A stretch of DNA of 48,609 bases from Acidimicrobiales bacterium (lineage in GTDB: Bacteria > Actinomycetota > Acidimicrobiia > Acidimicrobiales > SHLQ01). Below are positions 31,865 through 37,447 of this stretch, one piece after another (positions within the stretch are counted from its first letter, which is position 1; every line of letters starts with the position of its first letter). The stretch is taken from assembly GCA_020628865.1 (NCBI GenBank), contig JAHDEJ010000022.1:1-48609 (forward strand), read 5' to 3'. Both the position numbers and the translations under genes were made by a program. Under the pieces are notes generated by a model that was not told the DNA's origin, searched no databases, and saw only the letters and a program-made list of their open reading frames with translations.

Positions 31865-32887
31865 ATGACCGGTAACGCCAACTTCACTTTCAACGATGTC
31901 GCCATCCTTTCCGTCGAGGCGATCACCGCTCCGGAGGTCGTCACATCGGCCGACATCGACGAACGTTTGGCACCGTTCTATGAACGCACGGGCGCGCAGC
32001 CCGGCCTTCTGCAGTCGCTCGCCGGTATCACCGAGCGACGCCAGTGGCAGGAAGGCATCTCGTTCATGGACGCCGCCGCCATGGCCGGCGAGAAGGCAAT
32101 CCAGTCCTCGGGGATCGACCGGTCTCGCATCGGCATCATCGTGGATTCCAGCGTGTGCCGCGAGCGGCTCGAGCCGTCCAGCGCCGTCGACGTGCACGAC
32201 CAGCTCGGCCTGCCGTCCACCTGCATGAACTTCGACATCGGCAACGCCTGCCTCGGCTTCCTCAACGGCATGCACCTGGCCGGTTCCATGCTCGAGTCCG
32301 GCCAGATCGACTACGCCCTCATCGTCGACGGCGAGGGCACCCGGGAGATCCACGAGAACACGATCAACCGGATTCTCCAGCCCGACTCCACGATCGACGA
32401 CCTCTTCTACAACTTCGCGTCGCTGACGCTCGGTTCCGGCTCGGCCGCCATGGTGCTCGGCCGCCACTCCGAGAACCCCGGCAGCCACCCGATGACCGGC
32501 GGTTTCTTCCGGGCGGCCACCGTGCACAACAACCTGTGCGTCGGTTCGCTCGAGGGCATGCGGACCGACACCCGTGGCCTGCTCGAAGCCGGTACCGAGG
32601 TGGCGAAGCTCGCCTGGGAAGACGCAGGTGAGAAGGAGGGCTGGTACGACATGAAGTACTACGTCCTCCACCAGATTTCGAAGGTGCACACGCAGGCGGT
32701 CATCGACACCCTTGGTATCGATGGTGATCGTGTGCCCCGGAGTTTCCCGGTGCTCGGCAACATCGGTCCAGCGGCGATTCCCATCACTCTGGCCGGCGTG
32801 CAGGACACGCTCGAGCCTGGCGATGGGGTGATGCTCCAGGGCATGGGCTCGGGCATCAACGCGGCGATCGTCAACCTGGTCTGGTGA
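31865..32887 (+). CDS. oleA: OleA, thiolase-fold acyl-CoA head-to-head condensing enzyme
   Basis: 340 residues, close to Xanthomonas OleA (338). Residues equivalent to its catalytic set are visible with matching spacing: E103 (RLEPSSA), nucleophile C129 (GNACLGF; E-to-C 26 residues as in OleA E117/C143), H269 (VLHQISK) and N299 (GNIGPAA; H-to-N 30 residues as in H285/N315). OleA joins two fatty acyl-CoAs by non-decarboxylative Claisen condensation to a 2-alkyl-3-ketoacid. ATG 31865 has AAGGA four bases upstream; an earlier ATG at 31826 lacks this. The stop overlaps the GTG start of oleBC. Confidence 0.92.
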   Translation: MTGNANFTFNDVAILSVEAITAPEVVTSADIDERLAPFYERTGAQPGLLQSLAGITERRQWQEGISFMDAAAMAGEKAIQSSGIDRSRIGIIVDSSVCRERLEPSSAVDVHDQLGLPSTCMNFDIGNACLGFLNGMHLAGSMLESGQIDYALIVDGEGTREIHENTINRILQPDSTIDDLFYNFASLTLGSGSAAMVLGRHSENPGSHPMTGGFFRAATVHNNLCVGSLEGMRTDTRGLLEAGTEVAKLAWEDAGEKEGWYDMKYYVLHQISKVHTQAVIDTLGIDGDRVPRSFPVLGNIGPAAIPITLAGVQDTLEPGDGVMLQGMGSGINAAIVNLVW

Positions 32888-35418
32888 CCTCCGAACCCGC
32901 TCGGCTTCCGCCCGCCGGCCTCGACGGCCTGGATCCGAGCTGGTCCCGACTGGTCACCGTCGACTCGCTCGACAACGGCCGCACCTTTCATGTCTTGGAC
33001 AACGGGGTCGCCGACCCGGCACTCACGCTGTTGTGTGTGCACGGCAACCCGTCGTGGTCCTATTTGTGGCGCCATGTGGTCGCCGCTGCGCCGGCCGACG
33101 TTCGCGTCGTCGCCGTCGACCATCTCGACATGGGCTTCTCGGAGCGAACGGGCGAGTTCCGGCGCTTGGCCACACGCATCGATGACCTGGCTGCGCTGAC
33201 CGACGCCATGGGCATCGCCGGGCCCGTCGTCACGGTTGCCCACGATTGGGGCGGGCCGATCTCGCTCGGTTGGGTCGCCCGCAATCGGGACCTGGTGAAG
33301 GGTGTCGTCCTGCTGAACACGGCCGTCCATCAGCCAGAGGGGTCGCCGGCACCTCGGGTCATTCGGGCGGTTCGGACGCGAGGCGTGCTCGGCCGGGCAA
33401 CGGTCGACACCACGGCGTTCATCCGGGGTGCGTTCGAGATGTCCGACCCGAAGCCGACGCAGGAGGTGCGGGCCGGGTTCCTCGCTCCATACGGTTCGGC
33501 CGAACGGCGGAAGGCAATCGGCCAGTTCGTCGAAGACATCCCGCTCGATCCGAGCCACCCGAGCGCCACCGCGCTCGATGCTGTGGCCGACAGCCTCACC
33601 GAACTCGCCGACACACCGACGCTGCTGATCTGGGGCGCGAACGACAAGGTGTTCAGCGACCTGTACCTGCACGACCTCGAGGACCGGCTCCCCCACGCCG
33701 ACGTCCACCGTCATCCCAAGGCCGGCCACTTCGTGTCCGAAGATGTGGATGCAGCCGGCACGATCATGGACTGGGTCGGCTCGCTGGATGCTCCGCCCGC
33801 CGATGAGCTGCAGATCGACCATCTCGATTCGCTCGCCGATTCGTTGGCCGAACCGTCGATCGCCGAGCTCGCCGCGGTGATGGAGATGGGCGAGTCGTTC
33901 GATTCGATCGACTTCGGCCCGCTCGCCGACCGGATCGAGCAGACGGCCCGAGGCCTGCTCGCGACCGGCGTTGCCCCCGGTGACCGGGTGGCCCTCATGG
34001 TGCCACCCAGCATCGATCTCGTGGTCGCTCTGTACGCGTGCTGGCGGATGCGAGCCGTTGCCGTCTTGGTGGACTCCGGCCTCGGCCCGAAGGGCATGAG
34101 CGCCGCCATGCGATCGGCGGCGCCCGATCATCTCATCGGCATTCCGAAGGCGCTCGCCGCCGCTCGTGCACTCGGCTGGCCGGGCCGGCCGATCTCGACC
34201 GTGCCGCTCTCGAAGGTGCAGCAGCGGGTGTTGGGCTCATCGGTCGACCTGCCGTCGATCCGCTCCGAGCTCGCCACACCCCTGCCCGAGCCGACCATCG
34301 ACGATCCGGCCGCCGTCGTCTTCACGTCCGGGTCCACCGGCCCCTCGAAGGGCGTGTTGTACACGCACGGCCGCATCGACGCCCAGAAGCGGGCGATCAT
34401 GGAACTCTTCGACATCACGTCGGACGACCGCCTCGTGGCCGCGTTCGCGCCCTTCGCCCTCTATGGCCCGGCGATGGGCATCACCTCCGTCGTACCCGAC
34501 ATGGATGTCACCGCACCAGCGACGCTCACAGCCGTTGCCCTGGCCGACGCAGCCGTGGCTGCCGACGCCACCATGGTGTTCGCATCACCCTCGGCGCTGA
34601 CCAACGTGTTGCGCACCAAAGACGAGCTCTCGGCATCGCACCGCCTCGCCTTTGCCGACGTCCGGTTGGTGATGAGCGCCGGCGCTCCCGTGCGCCCGTC
34701 GCTCCTCCACGAGGTCGGCGAGCTCTTCCCGAACGCGAAGGTGCACACGCCATACGGCATGACCGAGGCACTCCCAGTGGCAAGCATCGAGCGGCATGAC
34801 GTGGCCGCAGCGACCGGCGGCGACGGGGTCTGCGTCGGTCAACCGTTGGCGGGCGTCGAGGTTCGCATCCGTCCGCTCGATGCCGATCCGGGCGACATCG
34901 TGGACACTCCAGGAGTCATCGGCGAGGTCGTGGTCCGAGCCGCCCATGCTCGCAACGGCTACGACCGCCTGTGGCACACGACCCACAAGGCGAGTCAGCC
35001 GGCCGGCTGGCATGCCACCGGCGATGTCGGCCACCTGGACCCCGAGGGTCGCCTGTGGATCGGCGGACGCCTCGGGCACGTGATCGATGCGCCGTCGGGT
35101 CCAGTCACGCCGGTCGCTCCGGAGCAGCAGCTCGAGGATCTGCCGGGTGTCACCATGGCCGCCGTCGTCGGCGTCGGTCCGACCGGTGTCCAGCAGTTGG
35201 TTGCGGTGTTGCAGGTCGACGATGCCGACAAGGCCCCTCGCTTGGCTTCGATCGAGCGCATCGACGCCGCTCGCGCCGCGGTCGATCACGACCTGGTTGC
35301 CGTGTTCGAAGTCCCGAAACTCCCGGTCGACCAGCGGCACAACGCAAAGATCGATCGAGCGGCCGTTGCGGCGTGGGCTGCGGCGGCGCTCTCCGGCGGA
35401 AAGGTCGGGTCGCTGTGA
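32884..35418 (+). CDS. oleBC: OleBC fusion: beta-lactone decarboxylase plus beta-lactone synthetase
   Basis: 844 residues in one frame. Residues 1-305 are the OleB alpha/beta-hydrolase, haloalkane-dehalogenase-like: HGNPSWSY (53-60), nucleophile D121 in AHDWGGP, acid D254 region and H282 in KAGHFV. From about 320 there is the OleC ANL domain with AMP-binding loop VFTSGSTGPSKG (479-490) and YGMTE. OleC closes the 2-alkyl-3-hydroxyacid to a cis beta-lactone using ATP; OleB removes CO2 to yield the cis-olefin. OleBC fusions are known in actinobacteria such as Micrococcus. GTG 32884 and the terminal GTGA overlap couple it to oleA and oleD. Confidence 0.92.
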   Translation: MTSEPARLPPAGLDGLDPSWSRLVTVDSLDNGRTFHVLDNGVADPALTLLCVHGNPSWSYLWRHVVAAAPADVRVVAVDHLDMGFSERTGEFRRLATRIDDLAALTDAMGIAGPVVTVAHDWGGPISLGWVARNRDLVKGVVLLNTAVHQPEGSPAPRVIRAVRTRGVLGRATVDTTAFIRGAFEMSDPKPTQEVRAGFLAPYGSAERRKAIGQFVEDIPLDPSHPSATALDAVADSLTELADTPTLLIWGANDKVFSDLYLHDLEDRLPHADVHRHPKAGHFVSEDVDAAGTIMDWVGSLDAPPADELQIDHLDSLADSLAEPSIAELAAVMEMGESFDSIDFGPLADRIEQTARGLLATGVAPGDRVALMVPPSIDLVVALYACWRMRAVAVLVDSGLGPKGMSAAMRSAAPDHLIGIPKALAAARALGWPGRPISTVPLSKVQQRVLGSSVDLPSIRSELATPLPEPTIDDPAAVVFTSGSTGPSKGVLYTHGRIDAQKRAIMELFDITSDDRLVAAFAPFALYGPAMGITSVVPDMDVTAPATLTAVALADAAVAADATMVFASPSALTNVLRTKDELSASHRLAFADVRLVMSAGAPVRPSLLHEVGELFPNAKVHTPYGMTEALPVASIERHDVAAATGGDGVCVGQPLAGVEVRIRPLDADPGDIVDTPGVIGEVVVRAAHARNGYDRLWHTTHKASQPAGWHATGDVGHLDPEGRLWIGGRLGHVIDAPSGPVTPVAPEQQLEDLPGVTMAAVVGVGPTGVQQLVAVLQVDDADKAPRLASIERIDAARAAVDHDLVAVFEVPKLPVDQRHNAKIDRAAVAAWAAAALSGGKVGSL

Positions 35419-36386
35419 AAGTCCTCGTGACGGGCGGAACGAGCATGATCGGCCGTGCCGTGATCGAGGCGCTCGTGCAGCGCGGCGACGACGTGACCTC
35501 GCTGCAGCGGGGCGATGCAGATCTGCCGGGCACGATGCTTCGCGGGTCGATCACCGATGCAGACGTGGTGGCTGCGGCCGTCGCCGGCCAGGACGCCATC
35601 GTCCACCTTGCGGCTCGGGTGGGCGTGACCGGCCCGTGGGACGAGTACGAGTCGATCAACGTCGGCGGAACCCGAACCCTCATCGCAGCGGCTCAGGCTG
35701 CTGGCGTCTCCCGGTTCGTCCACGTGTCGTCACCGTCGGTCGCGCACACGGGGGCATCGATCGTCGGGGATGGCGCCACCCCAGCCACGCCCGATGCGGC
35801 CACGAGCCACTACTCGCGCAGCAAGGCGATGGCCGAGGTCGAAGCGCTTGCTTCCTCGAGCGATGCCATGCCGATCGTCGCCATCCGCCCGCATCTCGTG
35901 ATCGGCCCGGGAGACACCCAACTCATCGAGCGCATCGTGGATCGTGCCCGATCCGGTCGGCTCCCACTCATCGGCTCCGGCCTGGCCCTCGTCGACGTCA
36001 CGTGGATCGACAATGCCGCTGGGGCCCTGGTCGCCGCCGTCGATGCAGCCCCCGACCTCGGTGGCCGGGCGCTCGTGGTCACCAACAACGAACCGCGCAC
36101 CGTCCACGAGCTCTTCGCCCGGATCGCGGCTGCGGCAGGTGTTGACTGGTCGCCTCGCAACGTTCCGGCCGCGGTCGCCATCGCCGGTGGTGGTGTGGCG
36201 GAGAAGGTGTGGGAACGCACCGGCCGCACGGACGACCCGCCGATGACGGCGTTCGGCGCCGAGCAGCTTTCGACCGCCCACTGGTTCGACCAGAAGGAAA
36301 CCCACGAGGCGCTCGGCTGGATGCCGACCGTGAGCCTTGCAGACGGTTGGGATCAGCTGGGCAACTGGTTCCGCAACCAGTCCTGA
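35415..36386 (+). CDS. oleD: OleD, NAD(P)H-dependent 2-alkyl-3-ketoacid reductase
   Basis: 323 residues, an extended SDR/epimerase-fold protein. The Rossmann motif is VLVTGGTSMIGRAV, with an Asp-containing IVHLAARVG, catalytic Ser region VHVSSPSVAH and the YSRSK Tyr/Lys pair. OleD reduces the OleA product to the 2-alkyl-3-hydroxyacid that OleC lactonises. Its position directly after oleBC, with a 4-bp GTGA overlap, supports the assignment over a sugar epimerase or 3-beta-HSD. The end overlaps the convergent DUF3179 gene by 34 bp. Confidence 0.9.
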   Translation: MKVLVTGGTSMIGRAVIEALVQRGDDVTSLQRGDADLPGTMLRGSITDADVVAAAVAGQDAIVHLAARVGVTGPWDEYESINVGGTRTLIAAAQAAGVSRFVHVSSPSVAHTGASIVGDGATPATPDAATSHYSRSKAMAEVEALASSSDAMPIVAIRPHLVIGPGDTQLIERIVDRARSGRLPLIGSGLALVDVTWIDNAAGALVAAVDAAPDLGGRALVVTNNEPRTVHELFARIAAAAGVDWSPRNVPAAVAIAGGGVAEKVWERTGRTDDPPMTAFGAEQLSTAHWFDQKETHEALGWMPTVSLADGWDQLGNWFRNQS

Positions 36387-37447
36387 TACGACTCGACCGG
36401 GGACCGTAGACCCCAGGCCCCCTCCAGGAAGTCCGCATCCTGCAAGCTCTCGGCGGGCTGGAAACCGCCGTCGGTCCAGATCCGTCCATCCGGGAAGATC
36501 TCGATGTAGTCCGACGGGAAGGACGAGAACGCCGGAAGGCGGTCGAGCGGCCCGGACCCATCGGTGGCGGTGCCGCGAAGCAGCTCGAACGTCCGGCCCG
36601 ATGCAATGTCCACGAGCGCACCGTTGCGCACCTCGAGCTCGATCGTCTCGCCGTCGAAGATGCGGGAGTAGACGACCCACTGCTCGGTGTCCGGGTCGAC
36701 GACGATCGCAAGCGGTTCGCCACCCACGATCGCCTGCACGATCCCGACCTCGACCAGGTCCCGGATCGGGACAGCGAGCGAGTCGTCGCCGACGGCGGCA
36801 ACCACCGCCGTGGAACCGACCTCGAAACCACGAGGCACCGAACCGACGTTCAGCGCCCGGGTGTCAGGATGCAGGGTTCGCCAGTCGTCCCAGGTGGACA
36901 GCGTGGAGGGCAGCAGATCGAGTCGCTCACCGGTGAGCGGGCCCATGATGGCTTCACCGGTGGGTTGGCTCCAGACGCTGCCGGTGTCGTGGTCGAACCA
37001 GGTCATGGCGTTGTGCCACAGGTCGCCCTGATTGCCGAACACCACCGGCTCTCCGTCGATCTCTCGGCGATGCACCATCGCCGTTGCGCACAACGGTCAC
37101 CAGGTGACGAGTGTGGGTATGCCCCGATGGTTGTCGATCACCATCTCCCGCCGCGTCAGGAACCCGACCGGGTAGGCGCGAGCCTCCCCGTCGATGTCCA
37201 CGCCGATCACCAGCTCGTCGCCCGGCCAGTCCACGCCGTCGGCCGTGGTGAACGAGGGTTCGTAGACGGGGTTGATCGCGTCACGCGGCAGCGACTCGCG
37301 GTAGTTGTCCGGCGGGTCCTCGGTGTCCGTGGGGTCGGGCAGGTCGGGGAACAGCCCGCCGCGCGCGCCGGTCGACAGGTCGTTGCCGCACGCGGTGGCG
37401 AACAGGGCCAGAACGAGCAGGACGATGAGTGCCGGACGGATGCGCAC
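36353..37447 (-). CDS. DUF3179 lipoprotein with in-frame TGA at the CPLC motif (candidate selenoprotein)
   Basis: Read through one TGA (37097-37099), the frame gives 364 residues. A lipoprotein signal (FATAC, Cys20) is followed by a DUF3179 domain: RAYPVGFLTRREMVIDN, then IPTLVTW-[TGA]-PLCATAMVHRREIDG and VFGNQGDLWHNAM..VWSQ. Family members read VTYCPLCG at this point, so the TGA replaces the first Cys and would give U117-P-L-C120, a UxxC redox motif. Reading frame and homology are continuous on both sides and there is no indel. A hairpin directly follows the TGA. Alternatives: a nonsense mutation in a dying gene, or a sequence error (TGC to TGA). DUF3179 has no assigned biochemistry. GTG 37447 is the best start but lacks a clear ribosome site. 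Confidence 0.7.
37065..37099 (-). promoter_or_regulatory. SECIS-like hairpin directly after the in-frame TGA
   Basis: Downstream of TGA 37099-37097, nucleotides +14 to +21 (CGGCGATG) pair perfectly with +25 to +32 (CATCGCCG): an 8-bp stem with loop GTG, or 7 bp with loop GGTGC. Bacterial SECIS elements lie inside the coding region just after the UGA and need a G among the first two apical-loop bases about 16-37 nt downstream; here it is at +21/+22. A competing small hairpin pairs +1 to +6 (CCGTTG) with +11 to +16 (CAACGG). Structure is seen; recognition by SelB is inference. Confidence 0.55.

Follow-up and report, generated by a model that had tools for sequence, protein, structure and literature searches.

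The window, a stretch of 48,609 nucleotides from an Acidimicrobiales genome of 5.36 Mb that is 95.9% complete, carries on its minus strand a gene of the DUF3179 family that is interrupted by an in-frame TGA. The read-through translation matches PF11376 over residues 83–228 (E 3e-49; 168.5 bits, the cut-off being 27), and in a PF11376 search of the whole genome the DUF3179 match spans one TGA. With selenocysteine (Sec, U) at this codon, the translation reads ...LVTWUPLCATAMVHRRE..., Sec being residue 145. The probable start is GTG 37447, the terminal TGA lies at 36355–36353, and no further stop occurs between the internal and the terminal TGA. The N-terminus that begins at this GTG contains a lipobox-like LFATAC, several homologues have a similar N-terminus, and the protein is probably an exported lipoprotein. 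NCBIfam holds no family for it, and a sequence search of the PDB returned no relative. It carries a C-terminal extension absent from the homologues compared, and at window positions 36353–36386 the 3′ end of the gene overlaps a convergent plus-strand epimerase-family gene by 34 nt. That gene is the second of a plus-strand pair (32884–36386) in which a hydrolase/AMP-binding fusion precedes the epimerase/3-beta-HSD family gene, an order that we take to resemble OleBC-OleD of olefin biosynthesis.

In bacteria, the Sec signal is a small RNA hairpin located just 3′ of the in-frame TGA, which makes the ribosome insert selenocysteine. The features of the putative signal (SECIS) and of the gene that contains it are as follows.

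36353..37447, minus strand: DUF3179 selenoprotein gene (predicted), its internal TGA read through; from translation and PF11376
37097..37099, minus strand: TGA, very probably read as selenocysteine (W-U-P-L-C, a UxxC motif); the same alignment column holds TGA in 82 of the 112 unique matches with TGA, TGC or TGT
37084..37096, minus strand: spacer of 13 nt between UGA and stem, of equal length in every row of a gap-free 69-row alignment
37076..37083, minus strand: 5′ arm of the putative SECIS stem, CGGCGATG, codons T-A-M; from folding, alignment and covariation (ACG 66/66, GCG 64/64)
37073..37075, minus strand: apical loop GTG, a Val codon, G first; G at the first loop base in 82/82 TGA rows
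37065..37072, minus strand: 3′ arm of the putative SECIS stem, CATCGCCG, codons H-R-R; from folding, alignment and covariation (CAT 65/65, CGC/CGT 65/65)

Counting the first base after the TGA as +1, CGGCGATG (+14 to +21) pairs with CATCGCCG (+25 to +32) in eight base pairs with zero mismatches. A perfect 8-bp hairpin with loop GTG after the TGA was the core of the preliminary description, and direct reading of minus-strand positions 37083–37065 bears it out, as it does the placing of the arms within the codons for T-A-M, V and H-R-R. The loop G is +22, and the UGA-to-loop distance is 21 nt. The eight stem pairs have pair probabilities of 0.76–1.00 in contexts of 60 to 180 nt, and the energy of the hairpin stretch is −12.8 kcal/mol (row L004). 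The loop G, which had also been put forward as agreeing with the bacterial rule, does agree with it, but it offers no independent evidence because it opens a Val codon that is conserved at the protein level. A lower stem beneath the hairpin (six pairs, positions 4–9 with 42–47 from the U of UGA, in the window fold) has all its pairs in just 4 of 82 TGA rows, which places it outside the conserved element. The hairpin has no match in Rfam at gathering thresholds, and a SECIS model searched across the same genome gave no second site below E = 1.

Taken alone, the window hairpin is weak evidence, a 1–2% event. The 60-nt fold has a z of −1.29, and 23 of 200 shuffles folded equally well or better. 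Under a rule that is wider than the DUF3179 site's own spacing and loop size (a Watson–Crick stem of at least 8 pairs, a loop of 3–9 nt, G in the first two loop bases, 16–37 nt downstream), a comparable hairpin follows 10 of the window's 1103 TGA triplets (both strands), the DUF3179 site being counted among the 10, and 53 of 10,000 random positions. Synonymous recoding of the window peptide reaches the stability of the hairpin in about 2% of draws (p = 0.0185). The significance of the hairpin therefore rests on its homologues.

Homologues were sought in the family (19 genomes), in the class (395 genomes) and in a named genome collection, where a single-protein query gave no matches and an alignment query did; the relatives named there are for the most part metagenome assemblies of Acidimicrobiia. 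Dropping identical 135-nt stretches and those with fewer than 60 nt downstream reduced 178 matches to 130, of which 18 have neither TGA nor TGC/TGT at the Sec column and were excluded. Among the 112 that remain, the Sec column is TGA in 82 and a Cys codon in 30 non-identical homologues, the TGA group being spread over Acidimicrobiia and Chloroflexi. Beyond this clade, the same column is Cys in most of the DUF3179 proteins encountered, which would fit a TGA that arose as a nonsense mutation or a sequencing error in a Cys gene, that is, a pseudogene. The chance of this is vanishingly small: TGA stands in the same column of 82 non-identical homologues from two phyla, no other stop precedes the terminal TGA, and reading frame and protein sequence, including the peptide T-A-M-V-H-R-R, are conserved on both sides of it.

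The stem is complete (8/8 pairs) in 66 of the 82 TGA rows and has 7/8 pairs in three (L097, L098 and L140), which are weak folds. The remaining 13 rows, from Chloroflexi, have just 4–5 pairs in the 8-bp register and possess their own 6-bp stem, CCGGUC/GACCGG, one base over and with an 8-nt loop; it was counted in 12 rows, and in L148 it was recognised by eye and includes one G-U pair. In these rows (L144, L146, L148, L150, L151, L153, L154, L156, L157 and L159–L162), the stem lies within 40 nt after the TGA, and the first G of the loop is at base 2 or 3, most of them missing the rule of a G in the first two bases unless a U-U pair closes the loop. One TGA copy, L208 (G355:C43), has an altered motif, SYUHACGTAMVHRR, in which the residues after Sec differ and the stem is unaltered.

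Covariation was scored on the 69 TGA rows that share the 8-bp register, the other 13 of the 82 being aligned separately. In these 69 rows, 99.5% of the stem cells are paired. Pairs 20–32 and 21–31, counted from the U of UGA, are changed on both sides in three sequences each (six cells): in L118 from C-G to G-C and from G-C to A-U, and in L149 and L155 from C-G to G-U and from G-C to C-G. The covariation score was reached by none of 500 shuffles, and no slid register gets to 60% paired. Since the stem is near-invariant in Acidimicrobiia, the double changes rest on these three sequences. Comparing the 60-nt fold with homologues for compensatory changes, the course suggested in the preliminary description, has thus turned up double changes in three of them.

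Codon choice points the same way. For this comparison, 12 Chloroflexi-type rows out of 78 were excluded, which left 66 TGA genes with 72 conserved degenerate codon columns. Synonymous entropy is lowest at the four codons of the stem: Thr is ACG in 66/66, Ala GCG in 64/64, His CAT in 65/65, and Arg CGC in 58 and CGT in 7 of 65, CGT still pairing as G-U. The median column, by comparison, retains 90% of its expected synonymous entropy, and the His that is always CAT in the stem is CAC in 58/64 genes at another conserved His column. When the peptides are recoded synonymously, the native fold stands out at p < 0.05 in 77/82 TGA rows versus 4/30 Cys rows. Judged by codon use, selection acts on the synonymous positions of the stem.

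The stem is absent in 11 of the 12 full-length Cys homologues, some of which have an identical or near-identical peptide. With the peptide TGMVHSR, L118 (UGA) forms 8/8 pairs and L145 (Cys) 5/8; L192, a Cys homologue with TAMVHRRELDG, has 5/8 pairs through the synonymous codons ACC, GCA and CAC. With the Chloroflexi peptide TGLVHDR, the full 6-bp stem accompanies UGA and is found in 0/4 Cys copies, and two of these contigs carry both a UGA and a Cys copy. These pairs bear on the simplest objection, namely that the hairpin is a by-product of a conserved protein sequence and of G+C-rich codon use. It is a fair objection to the window alone, where p is 0.0185, where Val fixes the loop G and where T-A-M-V-H-R-R is itself conserved. 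We nevertheless regard it as very unlikely, given that none of the other columns among the 72 is as low in synonymous entropy as the four of the stem, that double compensatory changes occur, and that Cys homologues with the same peptide use different synonymous codons and no longer form the stem. Hence, the earlier contention that the hairpin is a support independent of protein conservation holds for the synonymous constraint seen in homologues and is weaker than stated for the loop G, which is tied to Val.

The one exception is L062, a Cys copy with the same peptide and 8/8 pairs whose contig also carries a TGA copy some 1.1 kb away, and because of it the link between stem and Sec is imperfect. 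A hairpin just as strong in Cys relatives, the finding that had been named beforehand as adverse, is therefore absent from 11 of 12 and present once, in this tandem neighbor. Of the tandem DUF3179 genes, which lie on the reverse strand of L199 (identical with L062) at positions 662 and 1814, one has TGA and the other TGC; the hairpin is intact in both, and they probably represent a recent Sec-to-Cys change.

The association was followed on a tree of 97 proteins, from which rows shorter than 200 aa were excluded and to which six further non-identical rows were added; the 12 codons from the Sec codon onward were removed because the hairpin must not shape the tree. The stem is present in 82/85 Sec rows and missing in 11/12 Cys rows. 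TGA homologues without a conserved stem, also named in advance as counting against the proposal, did not appear, apart from the 3/85 with 7/8 pairs. The Sec/Cys label changes nine times, five of the changes being forced by well-supported branches. In five independent Sec/Cys pairs, stem and Sec are concordant in 4.6 on average and opposite in none (median sign-test p 0.0625), and five pairs are too few for significance alone. Could the hairpin have a separate role, in mRNA stability, pausing or regulation, and lie near the UGA by accident? The Cys copy that retains it (L062) would agree with such a role. However, the stem tracks UGA over the tree and the spacing is fixed, so that we find an accidental neighbor extremely improbable.

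The genome also encodes what Sec insertion would call for. It has a tRNA-Sec (65.1 bits, anticodon UCA), SelA, a SelB that starts inside the last bases of selA and carries the PF09107 winged helix (the SECIS-binding wing), and a SelD with its own in-frame TGA. Across the 395 class genomes, SelA is found in 36/38 genomes with a TGA-containing DUF3179 gene versus 231/357 others (Fisher p 4e-5), and the two such genomes that lack it are 56% and 75% complete. In the selD of the same genome (L022, 1531–1580), the in-frame TGA is followed by two adjacent hairpins, the second of which has a GUG loop like that of DUF3179, 33 nt after the UGA. A TGA-containing SelD occurs in nine family relatives; 7/9 were located by motif, and the same hairpin pair folds in 6/7.

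Sec incorporation is here deduced from sequence, and one may ask whether the UGA is instead read through without Sec, by near-cognate suppression or by recoding to Trp or Cys, the hairpin then acting as a non-specific signal for read-through or pausing. This seems highly unlikely in view of the complete Sec machinery and the association with SelA, of the UxxC position, which aligns with a conserved Cys, and of a hairpin that lies within all four published constraints for bacterial SECIS (bSECIS) elements. The conserved and compensated stem, the codon constraint, the near-total loss of the stem in Cys versions and the Sec machinery together lead us to the reading that the hairpin is almost certainly a bSECIS directing Sec insertion at the UGA of an mRNA that probably encodes an exported DUF3179 lipoprotein. 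SelB, loaded with Sec-tRNA(Sec), would bind the hairpin 13 nt after the UGA through its C-terminal winged-helix domain and bring selenocysteine to the ribosome at that codon. The product would be a protein with a U-P-L-C motif, presumably of redox function, and we infer that it acts as an exported thiol/selenol redox protein.

The predicted structures have a pLDDT of 92.2 for the mature part and 92.9 for the N-half alone. Positions 36449–37255 of the window (minus strand) encode an internal duplication, the two halves being related at an hhalign E of 8.9e-20. Models of both halves resemble Rieske-type beta domains at a middling level, with VIA Z up to 9.7 for the C-half (rmsd 2.7, 90 aligned) and up to 8.0 for the N-half (rmsd 3.0, 94 aligned). 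Foldseek returned no match at E ≤ 0.001 for the DUF3179 models, and when profiles were compared with those of 19 Rieske domains from this genome, the probabilities came to 1–9%. A CPxH-like motif was the first hint that Sec might replace a Cys of the Rieske cluster. This idea was dropped because the aligned ranges, together with the C-half profile comparison, place the UxxC loop at a turn that precedes Rieske box I, and the protein has no C-x-H. The placement is an interpolation within the aligned ranges and uses what we take to be the ligand positions in solved Rieske chains. The Rieske ligand pattern C-x-H ... C-x-x-H is absent from the protein: past the lipobox Cys, its only Sec or Cys residues are U145 and C148. 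Sec thus appears, in these models, not to occupy a Rieske ligand position.

It is tempting to go further and to propose that Acidimicrobiia and Chloroflexi share a widespread exported Sec family made of two Rieske-like beta domains in tandem, both lacking Rieske ligands, in which Sec and Cys have been swapped at least five times, the hairpin comes with Sec, decays with Cys and fixes otherwise free codons, and the Cys tandem copy with an intact SECIS is a swap caught before decay. We consider this composite picture evenly balanced between right and wrong.

Gene callers that treat TGA as a stop would cut the DUF3179 protein at this codon, and reading it as Sec restores the full protein; the same misreading applies to 38 or more of the 395 genomes searched in the class. 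The family also shows an RNA element that limits codon choice inside a protein-coding stretch. Sec and Cys genes that encode one and the same peptide, some having the hairpin and others not, and sometimes lying on one contig, form a natural test of SECIS function, and the many relatives and natural Cys versions make this an unusually clear bSECIS example.

The kind of element and the protein family are already known, since the bSECIS model is published and DUF3179 is listed as a selenoprotein. In the account of the model given in PMC13188914, where the E. coli formate dehydrogenase genes stand as the best characterised case, a bSECIS has a loop of 3–9 nt whose first two bases include a G (mostly G[G|U]), an upper stem of 4–16 bp, an energy of at most −7.5 kcal/mol and 16–37 nt from UGA to loop. 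The DUF3179 hairpin is within these limits, with its 3-nt loop and 8 bp, its −12.8 kcal/mol and its 21 nt from UGA to loop, a spacing for which agreement with the bacterial rule had been rightly claimed at the outset; its GUG fits the G[U] rule, although, as part of a Val codon, not independently. Like known bSECIS elements, it sits within the coding frame immediately 3′ of the UGA, and its RNA structure is conserved among UGA homologues, while its stem sequence is peculiar to the DUF3179 gene family.

DUF3179 with UxxC/T appears among the selenoprotein families in the reviews PMC9312934 and PMC13188914, the former citing a 2007 study of an Olavius symbiont. The present protein shares with that entry the PF11376 family, the UxxC motif and the replacement of the first conserved Cys by Sec (WUPLC aligned with WCPLC/YCPLC of Cys homologues), in an organism with SelA, SelB, SelD and tRNA-Sec. 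The DUF3179 entry in the tables of the two reviews is one row, and that row gives no SECIS or distribution. A literature search on selenoproteins of Acidimicrobi- listed nothing on a DUF3179 Sec hairpin, and among the matches listed for Rieske and selenoprotein none concerns the DUF3179 Sec case by title. What is added here to the published model and family is the covariation and compensation of the SECIS, its spread in Acidimicrobiia and Chloroflexi, and the fate of the element across Sec/Cys exchanges.
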